Shown here: positions 17,126 to 25,895 of the stretch, piece by piece
How the letters are laid out: each line of letters opens with the position of its first letter
Position numbering within the stretch: the first letter of the stretch is position 1
Virus record (IMG/VR): IMGVR_UViG_3300031857_000762
Span: 1-33,286 of that record
Source of the DNA: a virus
DNA: 33,286 nucleotides
Direction: 5' to 3' (one strand)
Program-made: the position numbers and the translations under genes
The notes under the pieces: model-generated
Database searches by the model: none
Told to the model about the DNA's origin: nothing
The model's input: only the letters and a program-made list of their open reading frames with translations

Positions 17126-17337
17126 CCGCGTGCCTCCTTCGCCTGCTTGCGCCAGTACCACTCACCCGACGTGCGTGCGGCCAGCCGGCGTTTCAGCTCT
17201 GCGATTTGCTCCCGCAGGCTATCCCGCTCGACCTCCAGTTCCGCGTATTTAAGCTGAAGCAGCGTTTGCTCTGCCTCGGCGTTTGCCAGCACTACCTTGT
17301 AGCCCCAACGGGCCAGGATCTTGTTTATGGTTTTCAT
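17122..17337 (-). CDS. coiled-coil hypothetical protein
   Basis: The 71-residue product is mostly one long helix, with a heptad-rich stretch LQLKYAELEVERDSLREQIA and a C-terminal WYWRKQAKEARG. It overlaps both neighbours by four bases (ATGA), which sets the start at 17337 rather than the longer frame. It may be a structural or regulatory coiled-coil protein. Confidence 0.6.
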   Translation of the reverse strand: MKTINKILARWGYKVVLANAEAEQTLLQLKYAELEVERDSLREQIAELKRRLAARTSGEWYWRKQAKEARG

Positions 17338-17879
17338 TCGCACGAATAAATTTGATCGGCTCGCTTGAGGCCAACGGGCCACGCCATGCCAGTGGTAAAG
17401 CTCTTGTCTTCAAAGATCACTCGATCAGTCGGCTGCACGGTGAAACGACCGTTCATCGTTCGGATGAACATAAACTCTTTCGCCTGCTCCGGTACTTCCG
17501 AGAATCCGTCCCCAACGGGAGCCACGGTGAAAAGATATTCCCCCATCACCTCACGGTCGTAGCACTTGGCCCTGCACCGCAGCGACCGCAGGAACGTGTA
17601 CTCGGTGGCACTCCAGTCGTACCCGTAGCAGTCCCATTGCTGCGCGTGCTCTGGCTGCCATCCGTCCTCCGGGTACCGGTCATGCGCCAGCGCATGGAGC
17701 GGCAGCCCTCGGTACACCGCGCCGCTCTCCAGCATCACGTTGCAGCCCCACATCCGCCCTGGGTGTGACACCAACCCAAACCACACGGCGGGGACGAAAC
17801 CGATGGAGGCTTTGTGCGTGAATGATGAGTCAATCCAAACGTATTGATGCTTGGGCAAACTGCCGATCAGTGTATTCAT
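17334..17879 (-). CDS. hypothetical protein next to the methyltransferase
   Basis: The 181-residue product is rich in aromatic residues and Cys and looks like a compact alpha/beta domain: HQYVWIDSSFTHKASIGFVP, FGLVSHPGRMWGCNVML, YRGLPLHALAH, YDREVMGEYLFTVAPVGDGF and MNGRFTVQPTDRVIF. The family is not recognised. The ATG at 17879 overlaps a TGA at 17876-17878 (ATGA), which is the stop that an unbroken methyltransferase would have used. This ties the two genes together as an old pair, possibly a modification-linked function. Confidence 0.6.
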   Translation of the reverse strand: MNTLIGSLPKHQYVWIDSSFTHKASIGFVPAVWFGLVSHPGRMWGCNVMLESGAVYRGLPLHALAHDRYPEDGWQPEHAQQWDCYGYDWSATEYTFLRSLRCRAKCYDREVMGEYLFTVAPVGDGFSEVPEQAKEFMFIRTMNGRFTVQPTDRVIFEDKSFTTGMAWPVGLKRADQIYSCE

Positions 17880-17883
17880 GGCT

Positions 17884-18591
17884 TCAAAGTTTCCCATGCG
17901 AGCGCAGCCACTGCTGGAACTTGTCCGTTCCCAATGCGCTTAATGCGCTCCACCCCGTGGGCCACGCCATTAAGGCGTCGTAGAAATCAAGGTGCGGGTA
18001 AATCGTCCCAGAGATGGCTTCCCCATTTGCCCAGGTTGAGAATTGGGCGTTGCGTTGCTGGAACTTGCTGCCGCTTGACGTGCCTTTGTAGTCCACCATT
18101 TGCGGCGTAGGCCAAAATCCAGATTCGTTCTCGCTTGTGAGGTGCTCCGGCGTGGCAAGCTCCCATAACTCCCCACCGAGCATCGTACCCCAGCGCGGAA
18201 AGGTCTCCAAGCACTCGTCCGAGTCCTCGAACAGTGAGCATTGGCGAGTTTTCCACGAAAACGTAGCTGGGTCGTACTTCGCCAACGATTCGGGCCATAT
18301 GTTGCCACATTCCGCTGCGCTCTCCGTCGATTCCTGCCCCTTTTCCAGCAATGGAGATGTCTTGGCATGGGAACCCGCCAGAAACCACGTCAACAACGCC
18401 TCGCCATGGCTTGCCGTCAAAGCTCCGCACGTCATCCCAGACGGGAAACGGCTCCAGGATTCCGTCATTCTGTCGGGCCACAAGTACGCTTGCGGCGTAG
18501 CCGTCCCATTCGACGGCACAAACGGTGCGCCATCCGAGGAGTTTGCCTCCGAGTATGCCTCCACCAGCGCCTGCGAAAAGAGCCAGCTCAT
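17884..18591 (-). CDS. overlapping reading frame across the methyltransferase
   Basis: A 235-residue frame starts at an ATG four bases inside the methyltransferase gene and remains open through the whole of it and past the premature TGA. It begins MSWLFSQALVEAYSEANSSD and ends in DKFQQWLRSHGKL. I recall similar alternate-frame proteins with an MSWLFSQALV start being deposited alongside phage dcm genes, but cannot check this here. It has no known domain. It may be a real overprinted gene or a frame kept open by the codon pattern of the methyltransferase. Confidence 0.4.
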   Translation of the reverse strand: MSWLFSQALVEAYSEANSSDGAPFVPSNGTATPQAYLWPDRMTESWSRFPSGMTCGALTASHGEALLTWFLAGSHAKTSPLLEKGQESTESAAECGNIWPESLAKYDPATFSWKTRQCSLFEDSDECLETFPRWGTMLGGELWELATPEHLTSENESGFWPTPQMVDYKGTSSGSKFQQRNAQFSTWANGEAISGTIYPHLDFYDALMAWPTGWSALSALGTDKFQQWLRSHGKL

Positions 18592-18595
18592 TCAT
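17987..18595 (-). CDS. dcm: DNA cytosine-5 methyltransferase, C-terminus cut off by TGA
   Basis: The 202-residue product has C5-methyltransferase motif I (LFAGAGGG, residues 6-13), motif IV with the catalytic Cys (SGGFPCQDIS, Cys77), a motif VI variant (VFVENSP) and motif VIII (HKRERIW, 153-159). It would transfer a methyl group from S-adenosylmethionine to cytosine. The frame stops at TGA (17989-17987), but the next 36 codons in the same frame encode motifs IX-X (VERIKRIGNGQVPAVAALAW) and end at a TGA overlapping the next gene's ATG. So this is an otherwise intact enzyme lacking its C-terminal motifs unless the TGA is read through. Activity is doubtful. Confidence 0.85.
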   Translation of the reverse strand: MNELALFAGAGGGILGGKLLGWRTVCAVEWDGYAASVLVARQNDGILEPFPVWDDVRSFDGKPWRGVVDVVSGGFPCQDISIAGKGAGIDGERSGMWQHMARIVGEVRPSYVFVENSPMLTVRGLGRVLGDLSALGYDARWGVMGACHAGAPHKRERIWILAYAANGGLQRHVKRQQVPATQRPILNLGKWGSHLWDDLPAP

Positions 18596-18669
18596 TTGTG
18601 TCGTTGAAGTTCAAGGTTGGGCCACAACGTAGCCACGGTTACAAGGCCAAATTGTTTTGGCTGGTATTT

Positions 18670-18772
18670 TTTCCGGTTAAAACGGGTTTCCGAAATTGGT
18701 TTGGCCGTTTTCCCGGAGGCCAAATGGTTTTCGGGGCAGAATTTCCGGGTTAAAAACGAAATCCAAAATTGG
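18670..18772. repeat. imperfect direct repeat in AT-richer segment
   Basis: Two related blocks of about 30 bases, at 18670-18699 and 18742-18772, share the order TTTCCGG, GTTAAAA, CG, TCC and AAATTGG. They lie in the AT-richest part of an otherwise very GC-rich gene-free stretch between the methyltransferase start and a leftward terminator. They could be binding sites for a replication or regulatory protein. Confidence 0.45.
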
Positions 18773-18975
18773 AACCCGGAATTTGCCAGCCGTTACGGGA
18801 TGCCGGTTGGCGGATCGGCAACGGAATCGGCAACGGTTGCCGGTTGGCGCTGCCGGCACCGGCACCGGCTCGCCGGCCGGCCGGGTTGGCTCGACCGGCC
18901 ACCGGCCACCGGTTGCGGCCAGGGTTGCCAGCCACGGCACCGGCCGCACGGCCACGGGTTGCGGCCATGGCCACC

Positions 18976-19018
18976 GGACACGGCCGGACACGGCGGACAC
19001 GGACGGACACGGACACGG
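18976..19018. repeat. five GGACACGG iteron-like repeats
   Basis: GGACACGG occurs five times, at 18976, 18986, 18995, 19005 and 19011. Four of the copies start about 9-10 bases apart, close to one helical turn. The surrounding 18800-19060 is made of short CCGG/CGGCC words and has no credible gene. Helically phased short repeats next to an AT-richer block are typical of protein-binding arrays such as origins, but this is an inference. Confidence 0.5.
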
Positions 19019-19076
19019 CACGCCGGCCACCGTGAAGACGTGGCGAAGCGCCGGCCGGGTTGCGGCCGTTTGTGAA

Positions 19077-19109
19077 CAAAAAAGCCGGCAACCCGTGAGG
19101 GAAGCCGGC
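19077..19109 (-). terminator. rho-independent terminator for the leftward small-gene operon
   Basis: On the minus strand, GCCGGC-TT-CCC-TCAC-GGG-TT-GCCGGC forms a long GC-rich hairpin followed directly by TTTTTTG. It lies 49 bases after the last gene of the leftward cluster (19158-20980) and so ends that transcript. Confidence 0.8.
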
Positions 19110-19157
19110 AAGGGAAAGCGGCCGGCAGTTAAGCGCGGCCGTTGGGTTGGGTTGGAT

Positions 19158-19394
19158 TTACTTCACTCGCACATAGGCGTTTGGCTCGCAAGCCGGCAAC
19201 GGTGCCGGACAATTTGACGGAATGCGCGAGACGGTGGCACGGGTTCCGATAAGATAGCCGGCCGGAAATTGTTCCAACGCAAGCCACCTGGCGAATCTAC
19301 GGTTCACGGTTTCCACCCGGACGGTGGCCACGGTTGCACCGTCGCGCACAAAACGGACAAGCCACGGACGGACCTTCGGAATCATTTGTTGCAT
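19158..19394 (-). CDS. small beta-rich hypothetical protein
   Basis: The 78-residue product is dominated by short strands (PWLVRFVRDGATVATVRVET, then RATVSRIPSN and a YVRVK end). The ATG at 19394 follows the leader AACCCGCAACCC, which also precedes the gene at 20421. It is the last gene before the terminator at 19077. The family is not recognised. Base use is very CCGG-rich, as in all of this island. Confidence 0.55.
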   Translation of the reverse strand: MQQMIPKVRPWLVRFVRDGATVATVRVETVNRRFARWLALEQFPAGYLIGTRATVSRIPSNCPAPLPACEPNAYVRVK

Positions 19395-19404
19395 GGGTTG
19401 CGGG

Positions 19405-20187
19405 TTAATTGGACATGGCCACGGCCGACGCACGGCCGGCTTTCGAGCCGTGCGGGTTAATCCAAACGGACGGAAGCGTCCGGCTTGGTTGCTGGCCGAA
19501 TGCCGGTGCCGTGGCGCGAAACCGTCCGTCGCAAAGCCGGCATTTTTCGCACGTCATTCCGGCCGCGTCCGAAAGACACTCAACCGTTCCCTCCGGCTTT
19601 TCCGGCGAGACGTGGAAAACCCGGAAGCCGGCCGCAATCGCCGCACGGAAGGAATCACGGGTTTCCGTGCTAGCCATGAAAAAGCGCCCATAATCGGCCG
19701 CACGCGGGTTTTCCCTCCAATCATGGAAATAACCGGTCCAACCGGCCGACGTGCGCGCAATTGCTTCGACTAATTCCAACGGAAGCAAGGTAGGGTTGCC
19801 GTACGCGCCAAACCTTACTTTGCGGTTGCTGAAAACGTGGCGGAAATCAGCCGGTGCAAGGGTTGGATAGTTGCCACGGTGGAACGTATTCCAAACGGCG
19901 AGCGGTGCCTGGCCGACGTTCACGTAACAACCCTGGCCACCGGCAAACGGACAACCCCGGCAAATCGTGCGAGCGTCAATGCGCTGCGCCACGGCCGCAA
20001 CCGGGTTGATGCGTTCCAATAGGAACCAAACTTGGACCATGTCGCCGGTTTTCCGGTTGTCGGTTTCCAAGGTTGCCACGGCCACGAACGGTTCGCCGGC
20101 CGCAAACGGACCCTGGCCGACGGTGCCACGGTAAAGGATAAAGCCGGACGGGTTGCCGGCGCTTCTTAGGAACGGGTTGGAGTGCAT
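19405..20187 (-). CDS. conserved phage protein with two Cys clusters
   Basis: The 260-residue product has two Cys motifs: CRGCPFAGGQGCYVNVGQAP (starting near residue 78) and CEKCRLCDG (near residue 212). Between them are KVRFGAYGNPTLLP and GWTGYFHDWRENP. The CxxCP...CYV...AP, RFGAYGDP, GWTGYTHQW, CxxCxxCDG order is shared by a family of phage proteins of about 250 residues whose function I do not know. The cysteines could hold zinc or an Fe-S cluster. It is the largest gene of the leftward CCGG-rich cluster, and its start lies behind three CCAACCCGT repeats. Confidence 0.65.
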   Translation of the reverse strand: MHSNPFLRSAGNPSGFILYRGTVGQGPFAAGEPFVAVATLETDNRKTGDMVQVWFLLERINPVAAVAQRIDARTICRGCPFAGGQGCYVNVGQAPLAVWNTFHRGNYPTLAPADFRHVFSNRKVRFGAYGNPTLLPLELVEAIARTSAGWTGYFHDWRENPRAADYGRFFMASTETRDSFRAAIAAGFRVFHVSPEKPEGTVECLSDAAGMTCEKCRLCDGRFRATAPAFGQQPSRTLPSVWINPHGSKAGRASAVAMSN

Positions 20188-20232
20188 TTGAACGGGTTGG
20201 TTTACGGGTTGGAAACGGGTTGGGTGTGCGTT

Positions 20233-20421
20233 TTAATACGTTCGCAAGAACGTTTGGAGGGTTTTCCGTTGCCGGCGCTTCGGTTGCGGGTTTTCCGCCC
20301 GGAGAATCGCGAGGCATTCCTTCAGCCTTTCAACTTCGGTTTTAGCCGATGCCAACGCGTCACGGTAAACTTGAATAACCGTTTGCGCGTCTTCTAACTG
20401 TTTGTGTGTGTCGTTTGTCAT
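20233..20421 (-). CDS. 62-residue coiled-coil protein
   Basis: The product is an almost continuous amphipathic helix (QLEDAQTVIQVYRDALASAK, then EVERLKECLAIL) with a basic end (KRRQRKT). The start is preceded by AACCCGCAACCC. It sits between the 33-residue membrane peptide and the Cys-cluster protein in the same leftward operon. The function is unknown. Confidence 0.6.
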   Translation of the reverse strand: MTNDTHKQLEDAQTVIQVYRDALASAKTEVERLKECLAILRAENPQPKRRQRKTLQTFLRTY

Positions 20422-20438
20422 ATGGGTTGCGGGTTGAA

Positions 20439-20540
20439 TCAGTCAAAAAAGCCGAAGAAGCCGAGCGCCACGACGGCGAGTAGAGAACAAAGCGCCAACC
20501 AAACGGCCAGCGCGGCCAGGGTTTCAAGGGTGCGTTTCAT
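20439..20540 (-). CDS. 33-residue membrane peptide
   Basis: A very short frame encodes a basic start (MKRTLETL) followed by a hydrophobic span (LAALAVWLALCSLLAVVALG) and the end FFGFFD. It begins three bases after the stop of the preceding gene. Tiny single-span proteins of this kind are frequent in early phage operons. The spacing and clean transmembrane segment support it. Confidence 0.55.
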   Translation of the reverse strand: MKRTLETLAALAVWLALCSLLAVVALGFFGFFD

Positions 20541-20543
20541 GGT

Positions 20544-20768
20544 TCAAAACCCTAGGTCGATCCAAGCAATGCGGCATTCCTGCTCGGCGTACGGGTAGCC
20601 GGACATCATGCGCACGGTTTCCTTAATCAGGGTGATTTCCCAAACGCCGGCCACGTCTGCATTCCAACAAACTTTGCCAACCCAACCCTCGCCGGCTTGC
20701 TCGGCCAATTCATCGGCCACCGTTTGCGCCACGTTCCGTTTGTCCGTTTGTGAGTAGTAGTGTTTCAT
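20544..20768 (-). CDS. small hypothetical protein
   Basis: The 74-residue product reads MKHYYSQTDKRNVAQTVADE, then GWVGKVCWNADVAGVWEITL and ends IAWIDLGF, a mixed helix/strand domain. The ATG at 20768 overlaps the preceding stop (ATGA), which supports both genes and this start. No family is recognised. Confidence 0.6.
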   Translation of the reverse strand: MKHYYSQTDKRNVAQTVADELAEQAGEGWVGKVCWNADVAGVWEITLIKETVRMMSGYPYAEQECRIAWIDLGF

Positions 20769-20980
20769 GCACAGCCACCCAACCCGCTTCCCCATTCCCT
20801 TACAAGGTAATTGACATCACTGTGGCCACCTATAAGCATTCCTTCCGGTGCTATTAGCTTGCCGGCAACCCGCATTTGCAATTTTACCCCGGCAAATGGA
20901 TTCTTCCCAACCCGCTCCACTCGGCCAGCCAAGTCCCGGTAAACCCTCACAAACGGCCAACAAACGGCCACGTTGGGCAC
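20765..20980 (-). CDS. small hypothetical protein, start uncertain
   Basis: The frame ends in an ATGA overlap with the next gene, so its 3' end is credible. It includes QMRVAGKLIAPEGMLIGGHS and ends in SGLGGCA. The first ATG (20980) gives 71 residues but overlaps the divergent gene at 20893 by 88 bases. An ATG at 20872 would give 35 residues and leave only a 20-base divergent gap. The function is unknown. Confidence 0.4.
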   Translation of the reverse strand: MPNVAVCWPFVRVYRDLAGRVERVGKNPFAGVKLQMRVAGKLIAPEGMLIGGHSDVNYLVREWGSGLGGCA

Positions 20981-21918
20981 GGACGGATCGTAAAGCCGGC
21001 CGGCCTAGCCGGAAGCAAATTGCCGGTTGGCTAAATTGGTTTAACCGGTTAACCCGTGCCGGTGCCCTGGCCGATGCGGCCGAGTTTCACCGCAAGCACG
21101 GTTTGCACCGGTACGGTGCCACCGTGCCAACGGTGCCAACGGCCGACACGGCCACCGGCAACCCGTTGGCCCCTGCCACGCCTACGGCGACCACAGGGGG
21201 GGAGGGGGGTCAACAGCGCCACGGGCGGAGTAATTGGGATAAAACCACCCCCGCAGTTCAAAATTCGCAGTGCAGTCCGTTAGCTACGGCCCGTGCTGTG
21301 CCGCTGGCAGTGGAAGCTGACCTCACTCGTTTGGCAGCTAAAGCTGCTTACACTCCCACTGTCACTCCCCCTACGGGGGAGTCGGAGGGAGATAGCGAAA
21401 AAGTCAACACTATTTGTAATGGGGCTAGTAGATTTGCTTCAATGTGGCCGAAGGTTGGGGAGGGGATTGTGGGGAAGGGGTGTCGGAATCGGCAGTACAA
21501 TGAGTTGAGGGTGGTGGGGGAGGATGGGCGGGAGCTGTGGACGAAGGTGGGGAATTGGATGTTTCGGAGTGGGTTGATCCGGGGGGAACGGGTGCTGGTG
21601 CGGAAGATCTGGGGGAGCGGGGATGACACGGATGCGGAGTATGAAGTGGTGAAACGGCTGGATGTGAATGAACCAGCGGAGGAACGACCTGTGCAGCCGC
21701 CACCCGCACCAGAACCGCTGCCCAATGCCGTTCCCGCCGCTATTCCCGAACGGCGAACGCTAGAGGCATACTTCCCTAGGGATGCAGTAACTACGGCTAT
21801 CCTGCCGCAGTTCCAACGGGAGGAGCCGGACTACCCGCGTAAGCAGGAGTCAGCGGATGACTACATCGCCCGGATCAGGGCGGAGGCGGCCATGTGGGCT
21901 AATGGGCAGGGTCGGTAG
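20893..21918 (+). CDS. hypothetical protein upstream of the small terminase-like gene
   Basis: The product has about 341 residues. Residues 20-60 are basic and helical (RKAGRPSRKQIAGWLNWFNR), residues 65-150 are Pro/Thr-rich and low in complexity, and residues 185-260 look like a compact domain (GRELWTKVGNWMFRSGLIRG). The C-terminal part is Pro/Glu-rich. Base composition changes near 21190, at a G-run: the CCGG-rich style of the preceding island ends there, so the gene may be a join of two segments. It may be a DNA-binding packaging or regulatory factor, but no family is recognised. A start further upstream (20848) is less likely. Confidence 0.5.
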   Translation, partial: QMDSSQPAPLGQPSPGKPSQTANKRPRWARTDRKAGRPSRKQIAGWLNWFNRLTRAGALADAAEFHRKHGLHRYGATVPTVPTADTATGNPLAPATPTATTGGEGGQQRHGRSNWDKTTPAVQNSQCSPLATARAVPLAVEADLTRLAAKAAYTPTVTPPTGESEGDSEKVNTICNGASRFASMWPKVGEGIVGKGCRNRQYNELRVVGEDGRELWTKVGNWMFRSGLIRGERVLVRKIWGSGDDTDAEYEVVKRLDVNEPAEERPVQPPPAPEPLPNAVPAAIPERRTLEAYFPRDAVTTAILPQFQREEPDYPRKQESADDYIARIRAEAAMWANGQGR

Positions 21919-24070: not shown

Positions 24071-24268
24071 ATGATCACAAAACGAGCCGTGGACGAGTGG
24101 TTGATCGAGCCGGATGTGGAAGGCGTACGGGAATACGCACGTTTGAGCGTCTACGCCGAGCCGGAAGGGCTGAACATTGACGGCCAGGGGCTGATTCCGT
24201 GGTCGCAACTGGAGTCCAGCCGCCTGACCTACGCGATTAAGATGAAAAAGCGCCATGCAGCTCGCTGA
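24071..24268 (+). CDS. small protein before the large terminase
   Basis: The 65-residue product is a compact mixed fold (MITKRAVDEWLIEPDVEGVR, then LNIDGQGLIPWSQLESSRLT) with a basic tail. It starts eight bases after the operator cluster and overlaps the large terminase gene by 14 bases, so it is the first gene of the packaging operon. No family is recognised. Confidence 0.6.
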   Translation: MITKRAVDEWLIEPDVEGVREYARLSVYAEPEGLNIDGQGLIPWSQLESSRLTYAIKMKKRHAAR

Positions 24269-25895
24269 TCGTTACTACGCAGACGACTTTCGCCCCGATT
24301 TTGGCATTCCGTGGATTCCAAACCCACCGGACGCCGAGTTGATGAGCTGGCCGCACGAAAAGCTGGCAAACTACCTCGCGTTTCGGGAGCAGCGGAACAA
24401 GGAGGCGTTGGAAAACCCCGTCGGCGCAGGCTGGATTCTCCCCTCATGGCAGACGGTGATGAACAACTGGGGAAAATACACCAACCACATCATACTAGGC
24501 GGAAATCGCAGTTCCAAATCGATGATAGCCAGCAGGTTATGCGTGTGGGCCGCTGGTACCATACCCGGCGCCGAGGTCCGCGCCTACCATGTCAACGAGG
24601 ACCGGAGCATCGAGGACCAGCAGCGCATGGTCTGGGATGCTTTACCGCAAGGCATCCGTAACTTACCTACCAAGAAAGGGTTGAACCACAGTGTCCAGTA
24701 TTCCCAGAAGAACGGTTTTACTGACAACATTTGTATCCTGCCTCCTGTTAATGGTTTCCGTCGTGGTGGCAGTATTAAGTTTAGTAACTACCGCAGTTAC
24801 CAAGCTGATGCACAAGTAGCGGAGGGCTACCGCGCCCACTTGATCTGGTGCGACGAGGAGTGTCCCCAGAAGATGTTTGAAACGCTCCAGTACCGGACGA
24901 CCGACTTCCATGGACGCATCATCCTCACGTTTACTACTCTCACAGGCTGGACACCTCTGGTACAGGACATCCTCGGGAAGACTCGTACCATTGAAAAGCG
25001 ATTTGCCCCGCTGGTGGGTCGAGAGCTACCAGTCGTCCAAGAGTCCCTTTCCCGACCGGGAACTGTTATCTACTATTTCTGGACTGAAGACAACACGTTC
25101 ATCGACACCTCCGACTTCCGAAACAAGTTGCTCGGGCGCTCCAAGGATGAAGTGTTGGCCCGTGCATATGGCGTACCTACCAAAAGCATCACTAGCGTCT
25201 TTCCTGGCTTCAATAAGGACGTTAATGTCATACCTCACGAAAAGATGCCGTGGACAAACAACGTGGACTACAACGTCACACGTTTCATGGCGCTGGACCC
25301 TGCGGGCTCCAAAAACTGGTTCATGCTCTGGGTCGCCATCGACGCCGCCGGAACATGGTGGGTCTACCGGGAGTGGCCCGACTACGACGACTGGGCATTG
25401 CCCGGAACCGGCCCCGAAGGCAAAGCCGGCCCCGCGCAGAAGGGCAGCAAAAAAGGCATCATCGACTACGTTGAACTTATCAAGCACTGCGAGCAGGGCG
25501 AAACCATTTTCGAGAGGTTCATTGACCCGCGTCTCGGTGCAGCGGAAAAGCAGTCAGCCGAAGGCGCCACCACCATCATAAGCGAGCTGGACTCGGCCGG
25601 AATGGTCTTTCACCCGGCGCCCGGCGTGGAGATCGAGAACGGCCTCCAGTTGATCAATGGCCTCCTATCCTACGATGAGAAGCGGCCCCTGTCCGCTCTG
25701 AACGCCCCCAAGCTGTACATCAGCGACCGCTGCCAGAACTTGATCTACGCCTTGCAGGAGTACACGGCCAAGGGCGGCAAGGACGAGGCGACCAAGGACC
25801 CGATTGACTGCCTGCGCTACCTCTGCGTGTCCAACTGTAGCTTTGTGGACCCGCACGCCGCCGAACAGGTGGACGACCGCACATGGAGCTATTGA
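24255..25895 (+). CDS. terL: terminase large subunit
   Basis: The 546-residue product has the two terminase domains. The ATPase half carries Walker A GGNRSSKS (residues 82-89), Walker B LIWCDEE (196-202) and the coupling motif TFTTLTG (225-231). The nuclease half has the acidic residues in MALDPAG (Asp348), FIDPRLG (Asp424) and KDPIDCLRYL (Asp515/518). It cuts concatemeric DNA and pumps it into the capsid through the portal. Length is normal for the family. It overlaps the small upstream gene and precedes the portal by 50 bases. Confidence 0.95.
   Translation: MQLADRYYADDFRPDFGIPWIPNPPDAELMSWPHEKLANYLAFREQRNKEALENPVGAGWILPSWQTVMNNWGKYTNHIILGGNRSSKSMIASRLCVWAAGTIPGAEVRAYHVNEDRSIEDQQRMVWDALPQGIRNLPTKKGLNHSVQYSQKNGFTDNICILPPVNGFRRGGSIKFSNYRSYQADAQVAEGYRAHLIWCDEECPQKMFETLQYRTTDFHGRIILTFTTLTGWTPLVQDILGKTRTIEKRFAPLVGRELPVVQESLSRPGTVIYYFWTEDNTFIDTSDFRNKLLGRSKDEVLARAYGVPTKSITSVFPGFNKDVNVIPHEKMPWTNNVDYNVTRFMALDPAGSKNWFMLWVAIDAAGTWWVYREWPDYDDWALPGTGPEGKAGPAQKGSKKGIIDYVELIKHCEQGETIFERFIDPRLGAAEKQSAEGATTIISELDSAGMVFHPAPGVEIENGLQLINGLLSYDEKRPLSALNAPKLYISDRCQNLIYALQEYTAKGGKDEATKDPIDCLRYLCVSNCSFVDPHAAEQVDDRTWSY

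Follow-up and report, generated by a model that had tools for sequence, protein, structure and literature searches.

A probable fully overlapping alpha/beta cytosine-C5 methyltransferase cassette in a phage genome, with a probably inactivating nonsense codon in alpha

The methyltransferase locus in the window, the 33,286 nt stretch of IMG/VR record IMGVR_UViG_3300031857_000762 that was analysed, is best read as a cassette of two fully overlapping genes, alpha and beta, which together would encode a cytosine-C5 methyltransferase; a nonsense codon in alpha removes motif X and leaves beta open, and the copy is probably defective. This reading is given a probability of about 0.7. Computation shows both frames, selection across relatives against stops in beta, where motifs IX and X lie, the TGA in two assemblies, and a close relative without the cassette. 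In the proposed mechanism alpha would supply the AdoMet-binding and catalytic core (motifs I-VIII, in relatives also X), and beta, translated from its own ATG and paired with alpha, would supply motif IX, or the segment on the target-recognition side, and perhaps target contacts. Where both genes are intact, their products most likely form an alpha/beta heterodimer that methylates DNA of the phage or of its host; the loss of motif X would abolish activity, so that the enzyme of the window is probably inactive with beta left open. The conserved second gene that is frequently hidden in phage 'Dcm' genes is of more interest than the TGA itself.

Alpha lies on the minus strand at 17987-18595 and has 202 codons before its TGA. 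The product before the stop is a Dcm-like catalytic part with motifs I-VIII and matches PF00145, C5-cytosine methylase (E 3.8e-32, profile positions 4-182 of 324), as expected from the initial annotation of the cut frame as a cytosine methyltransferase. Read with X at the stop, the frame matches phrog_363 (7.5e-61) up to profile position 312 of 327, and a profile of alpha relatives matches M.HhaI (E 2.8e-20). FPCQD, ENSP and KRERIW, which belong to the catalytic motifs, are present in alpha. The core of alpha scores typically for its family (56th of 140 from below) and is without sign of decay. No clear Shine-Dalgarno sequence was found ahead of the alpha or the beta start in the window.

Translation of 17876-18595 on the minus strand confirms that the frame is cut, after its first 202 codons, by a TGA at 17987-17989 that directly follows a proline codon (CCT). 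The rest of the alpha frame (17876-17986, minus strand) consists, as described earlier, of 36 open codons that carry motif X (RIKRIGNGQVPAVAALAW), contain ...VERIKRIGNGQVPAVAALAWETLKP and end at the TGA at 17878-17876, which overlaps the ATG of the next gene at 17879 as ATGA. Of motifs IX and X, both of which had been placed behind the stop, only X is found there, in the alpha frame; the IX-like end sits in beta. Because the motif carried by the frame behind the stop is conserved across the family, this frame is more than a chance open frame; the conservation of the DNA behind the stop is in part accounted for by the conserved second gene in the +1 frame. The motif X region of the window ranks 15th of 137 from below. 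The next gene (17334-17879, minus strand) matches phrog_3704, which bears the labels 'ferredoxin' and 'moron', and has no Pfam match. The sole tRNA is Gln-TTG, in agreement with the initial annotation.

Beta, in the +1 frame of alpha, extends from an ATG at 18591 to a TGA at 17884 (17884-18591, minus strand, 235 codons) and is uninterrupted over the DNA of alpha. Its ATG lies 4 nt downstream of that of alpha, and its end is IX-like (...YPHLDFYDALMAWPTGW...). The earlier description of the locus as a cut cytosine methyltransferase gene holds; the gene is also double-coded, the +1 frame having been overlooked. Beta has no Pfam or NCBIfam match and no HNH match. Among PHROGs it falls in phrog_1008, described as 'DNA methyltransferase' (E 2.9e-17), and also matches two small families. 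Relatives of beta were found by tblastn in 32 phage records, 18 of them covering at least 80% of its length, and a relative is encoded in at least 576 of the 600 pattern-matched IMG/VR stretches listed.

Two sets of loci were compared, the 80 IMG/VR loci closest by alpha (L001-L080) and the 80 closest by beta (L081-L160), 144 of which are unique; the loci picked on alpha form the fair set, and those picked on beta are biased for the ATG and for openness. Of the 80 loci picked on alpha, 79 (75 of 76 unique) have the beta ATG at +4 from the anchor of alpha, as do 143 of the 144 unique loci overall. Codon 1 of alpha is ATG, GTG or TTG in 123 of the 144; in 20 of the remaining 21 a start codon lies at most 21 nt upstream of the alpha anchor, the exception (L010) having a GTG 63 nt upstream.

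If the locus were a single-gene phage Dcm broken by a nonsense codon, the open +1 frame would be a meaningless by-product of codon bias. This would suit an alpha that clearly belongs to PF00145 and a beta that lacks a known domain; the conservation of the beta ATG, the IX-like end that is present in beta and absent from alpha, and the count of stops all speak against it. Over alpha codons 3-165 no stop in beta occurs in the 76 unique loci picked on alpha, where 214.5 are expected from synonymous shuffling of each gene's own codons with phylogeny ignored, and none in the 68 loci picked on beta, where 183.7 are expected. Up to 25 codons before the alpha end, the counts are 1 against 329.2 for the loci picked on alpha and 6 against 288.3 for those picked on beta. 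At the 4-fold sites of alpha, 14173 pair-changes that put a stop into beta would be expected and 0 are observed, these counts being sums over related pairs and not independent events. In the control, the terminase large subunit (TerL) of the window phage and its relatives, whose base composition, and perhaps rate, is unlike that of the pair, the count is 11944 against 3166, not to be taken for a true excess since the observed value counts either member of a pair and the expectation one side. At 70-90% amino acid identity, identity at 4-fold sites is 0.54-0.68 for alpha and 0.35-0.45 for TerL. Selection clearly keeps beta open along its full length.

Constraint on the amino acids of beta is less uniform. 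The overlap-aware NN/NS ratio of beta, likewise summed over related pairs that are not independent, is 0.40 for codons 4-60, 0.41 for codons 121-162 and 0.81 overall, as compared to 1.14 in the third frame of these genes and 1.59 in the TerL +1 frame; codons 61-120 show no amino acid constraint by this ratio (1.30). Beta changes at 4-fold sites have a BLOSUM62 score of -1.24 overall against -1.48 expected, and in codons 121-163 they are hardly more conservative than expected (-1.57 against -1.65). At 70-75% alpha identity the amino acid identity of beta (0.467) is barely higher than that of the third frame (0.443), which is full of stops. Constraint on the beta amino acids is seen at the beginning of the frame and beyond about codon 120, and is absent in the middle third. 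The unconstrained middle third and an identity close to that of the third frame are what a single-gene Dcm would lead one to expect; the second frame is nevertheless open and constrained beyond what alpha explains, the openness very strongly so, and the single-gene reading is judged quite unlikely.

Motif IX belongs just before motif X in the single-chain order of these enzymes. In the consensus of 137 loci the two are divided between frames: the alpha end reads ...GvA.rvDRlkaiGNGQVp (motif X) and the beta end ...Gl.pTP...lnP.wvEwlMgWP.gWTdLkp, with LNPxWVEWLMGWPxGW as the conserved motif IX-like part. This part is called 'motif IX' on account of where it lies and of a weak similarity. A 174-row HMM of the beta end scores 32.6 bits in the +1 frame of mycobacteriophage SG4, 35.4 in that of Microbacterium phage vB_MoxS-R1 and 28.4 in that of Bacteroides phage BU730P1. 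Scores of 14-15 bits, above the inclusion threshold, were obtained in separate C-terminal ORFs of the actinophages EricB, Lilbooboo and ToneTone. No alpha frame of the small target set exceeded the inclusion threshold.

Motif X in the alpha frame together with IX in the +1 frame was found in 19 of 29 distant rows, many of which are near-identical phages (L370 was omitted as short, and L300 has no forward alpha match). In the single-chain relatives L371 and L373 the IX-like motif stands directly before X in one frame. L365 and L366 have IX in the alpha frame behind a stop, and L367-L369 have it in the +1 frame, in both cases with no motif X within reach; L358 is frameshifted, and L364 and L372 carry neither motif. 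In L107, L026, L076 and L293 indels redistribute IX and X among the frames, in one example joining the alpha core to the beta motif IX and leaving motif X alone in the third frame; these loci are natural experiments or assembly errors.

Motif IX of the window beta ranks 7th lowest of 133, and the first part of this beta ranks 20th of 140 from below. The window shares this unusual beta end with L083 and L084, which are among its nearest relatives. Going by its motif IX, the window beta may be decaying too.

Searches against PDB sequences do not align motif IX: the beta profile yields one chance-level match, and in the natural alphaN-betaC fusion L107 the core alone aligns. An alignment mixing alpha N-parts with beta C-parts (A4) was dropped as visibly misaligned, and A6 was used. 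Modelled alone, beta reaches a pLDDT of 59.9 and a pTM of 0.29, with no PDB match at Z of at least 2 among the 30 chains compared; so poor a model would be expected of a part that folds on its partner, and equally of one with no fold. The AlphaFold model of the L107 fusion (pLDDT 59.7, pTM 0.51, about 60 in the motif IX stretch) superimposes on M.HhaI with Z 12.2 over 168 aligned residues (model 1-283 on 10-294) and on M.HaeIII with Z 12.0 over 167 residues (3-282 on 1-298). Of the 50 matches listed, 21 reach residues 281-284 and the others end near 200. The model would place the beta helix 276-283 at the end of the small domain of HhaI, a placement taken from range ends alone at a confidence of about 60.

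The origin of the stop had been ascribed to a single substitution from CGA. A substitution is compatible with the data; arginine is aligned to the TGA in only 10 of 122 homologues. The alignment was ungapped from motif X and leaves out 21 of the 143 other unique loci, in which X was not found in the 1300 nt scanned or the locus was short. Neither arginine nor a stop is usual at the site: the aligned residues are N in 45 homologues, E in 20, D in 20, G in 12, R in 10 and others in 15, from many sense codons. Arginine as the usual residue was rejected on these counts. Among the 76 unique loci picked on alpha, four of which run off their contig, alpha ends before codon 226 only in the window and in L076, whose frames are reshuffled by an indel. 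Two loci found through beta, L260 (a Betaproteobacteria MAG) and L274 (Pseudomonas sp. QTF5), have a single stop in alpha, at codons 166 and 41, respectively, with beta open.

The genetic code makes NNC and NNT synonymous, and a third-position change of C to T is silent. Position 1 of the alpha codons is position 3 of the beta codons, and for this reason a change of C to T can stop alpha and yet stay silent in beta. A stop like the one in alpha can arise in this manner, and the window suggests that a frame may be lost through substitutions that are silent in the other. Loss, one of the options raised initially, agrees best with the findings: motif X is removed from alpha by a nonsense codon, and the copy is probably defective.

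A sequencing or assembly error at 17987-17989, another of those options, would have to be repeated in a second assembly, IMGVR_UViG_3300032050_000513 (32211 b), which has other contig ends and holds the same TGA; on this ground an error is unlikely. The second assembly differs from the window by 2 mismatches over 16000 bases, both elsewhere than at the stop, and by none over 9007 and 1163 bases. A 26-base pattern with C or T as the first base of the stop, meant to catch intact near relatives of this phage, matches the second assembly alone among viral contigs. The stop is of the substitution type with no frame shift, and both frames are otherwise free of defects. The window is a metagenomic virus contig, and the two assemblies could share reads or sample, which leaves some room for an error; it is rated quite unlikely.

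A regulated stop, also proposed at first, finds no parallel in any of the 122 alignable homologues. In this phage TGA serves as a normal terminator: it ends 14 of the 28 mechanically chosen ORFs of at least 120 aa in the window, TerL (24255-25895) among them. An altered code and regulated readthrough were set aside, TGA being an ordinary stop in the phage and the stop being unconserved among homologues. A wider form of recoding would use TGA readthrough or a +1 shift at CCU_UGA to give, in a set ratio, a longer alpha or an alpha-beta fusion. The proline codon before the TGA, a +1 shift that would join beta just a few codons upstream of motif IX, and the natural alphaN-betaC fusions L107 and L026, in which indels join the alpha core to the beta end, are consistent with it. 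So is +1 shifting at CCC_UGA, described for the tsh genes of Listeria phages and, at 15%, for pheL in E. coli in excerpts of PMC5009743; however, the site here is CCU and not CCC, and the same excerpts give 1.9% for pheL in Salmonella. The RNA structure is unremarkable (z -1.10), an alpha-beta fusion would be without motif X, and the broken alphas of L260, L274 and L076 stop after other codons. With these points and the absence of an aligned stop against it, recoding is considered very unlikely. The most specific version, in which the TGA acts as a new switch and some ribosomes shift +1 at CCU, a single mRNA giving beta by itself, the truncated alpha and, as in L107 and L026, the two fused, is least probable of all; if true, a split enzyme would be re-fused by frameshifting across two fully overlapping genes.

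Among known split methyltransferases, M.EcoHK31I has an alpha of 309 aa and a beta of 176 aa, the latter reportedly encoded in an alternative frame inside alpha, and M.AquI has the target CYCGRG. According to excerpts of PMC3404938, M.EcoHK31I divides its motifs between two polypeptides, I-VIII, X and the predicted TRD being in the larger and IX only in the smaller, and methylation requires two proteins (title of Lee et al. 1995, cited there). The phage pairs resemble it in motif layout, with I-VIII and X in the large frame and IX in the other. In the window beta starts 4 nt after alpha, covers it whole and, at 235 aa, is not smaller than the truncated alpha (202 aa); a separate polypeptide with IX would, judging by sequence and model, be common to both systems. 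The large-subunit motif X is absent from the alpha product of the window, as the TGA precedes it. The copy in the window appears to be defective and not a full member of the M.EcoHK31I type, because motif X lies outside its conceptual alpha product. M.EcoHK31I already represents the two-polypeptide kind, and the form in which the overlap is full-length is frequent among phages. No feature named EcoHK31I was seen among the plasmid and E. coli matches listed.

A truncated alpha might still be active together with beta in the manner of M.AquI, in which one C5 methyltransferase is likewise made from two genes and the large subunit ends short of the C-terminal motifs. In the actinophages Lilbooboo (L165), ToneTone (L166) and EricB (L250) alpha ends after VIII and is followed by a C-terminal ORF in the +1 frame. 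That ORF, however, carries both IX and X, as does the small subunit of M.AquI according to the excerpts of PMC3404938, whereas the window beta ends without motif X, which lies in the alpha frame, so that the pair has none before the TGA. Residual activity of this kind is held to be unlikely. Each of the three actinophage loci forms an AquI-like split, and its two genes are both annotated, under the name 'DNA methylase' or 'DNA methyltransferase'. In SG4, MoxS-R1 and BU730P1 the +1 frame contains stops close to its start, and the overlap begins later than in the window.

According to PMC11855218, phage ShiLan has a mobile insert with an HNH endonuclease that lies out of frame inside a methylase gene. 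A second frame inside a methylase is thus present in both phages, and in the window the overlap is the methylase itself, without HNH. Literature listings searched for a phage methylase with an overlapping +1 gene showed mentions of EcoHK31I and AquI and the ShiLan insert only; surveys of overlapping virus genes such as PMC8903798 and PMC8227390 may mention one. Alpha and beta correspond to phrog_363 and phrog_1008, respectively, which bear the same description, and the search output does not state their two-frame relation. Should beta prove real, a large number of phage 'Dcm' genes would each be two genes in one, alpha expressed alone would give an inactive enzyme, and methylation predictions made from alpha only would mislead. 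A full-length double-coded enzyme would also offer a clean system for two frames evolving under joint selection.

The pair is missing from a close relative of the window phage, L304 in G008 (36622 b; TerL 96%, next gene 93% identical). Window positions 18618-18784 and 17873-17322 match this relative, in which only 14 nt separate them, so that the cassette extends from 17874 to 18617 on the minus strand. As this relative does without it, the pair is an accessory cassette, of which a defective copy is plausible; from its sequence, the window copy is probably an inactivated accessory methyltransferase. None of the 39 TerL-related records searched, out of 80 that include many short contigs, has the pair, and 4 of the 39 have a distant methylase alone (38-42%). 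A PHROGs search of 10 neighbouring ORFs found no restriction gene. In bacterial genomes 42 loci with beta relatives were found, mainly in Pseudomonas, Acinetobacter and other Proteobacteria, each of which also matches alpha, in some cases with the match broken or incomplete. Beta relatives are also present on 4 plasmids, 3 of which cover at least 80% of its length, and 4 of 5426 E. coli genomes have a relative of the S9-5 pair. The opened records of the overlapping kind, from seven phages and one plasmid, annotate both frames in none of 8 cases: alpha alone is annotated in L162, L164, L251, L252, L253, L254 and L255, and beta alone, as hypothetical, in L163.

The 2.5 kb just upstream of the pair (18680-21165), which span coding and non-coding DNA, are rich in two motifs. 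YGGCCR occurs 46 times against 8.6 expected from local dinucleotide shuffles, and AACCCG/CGGGTT 26 times against 5.0; 46 of the 48 GGCC sites in this stretch are YGGCCR, compared with 59 of 187 elsewhere in the window. The stretch has no blastn match among phage records, and no comparable YGGCCR-rich stretch is found in the 12.6 kb of the relative G008 that were examined. YGGCCR is given as the target of M.EcoHK31I in the excerpts of PMC3404938; the agreement with the upstream stretch may be a coincidence. In the 2.5 kb upstream of 155 pair loci, YGGCCR density is highest in the window, at 17.6 per kb, followed by 6.0 per kb in the next locus.
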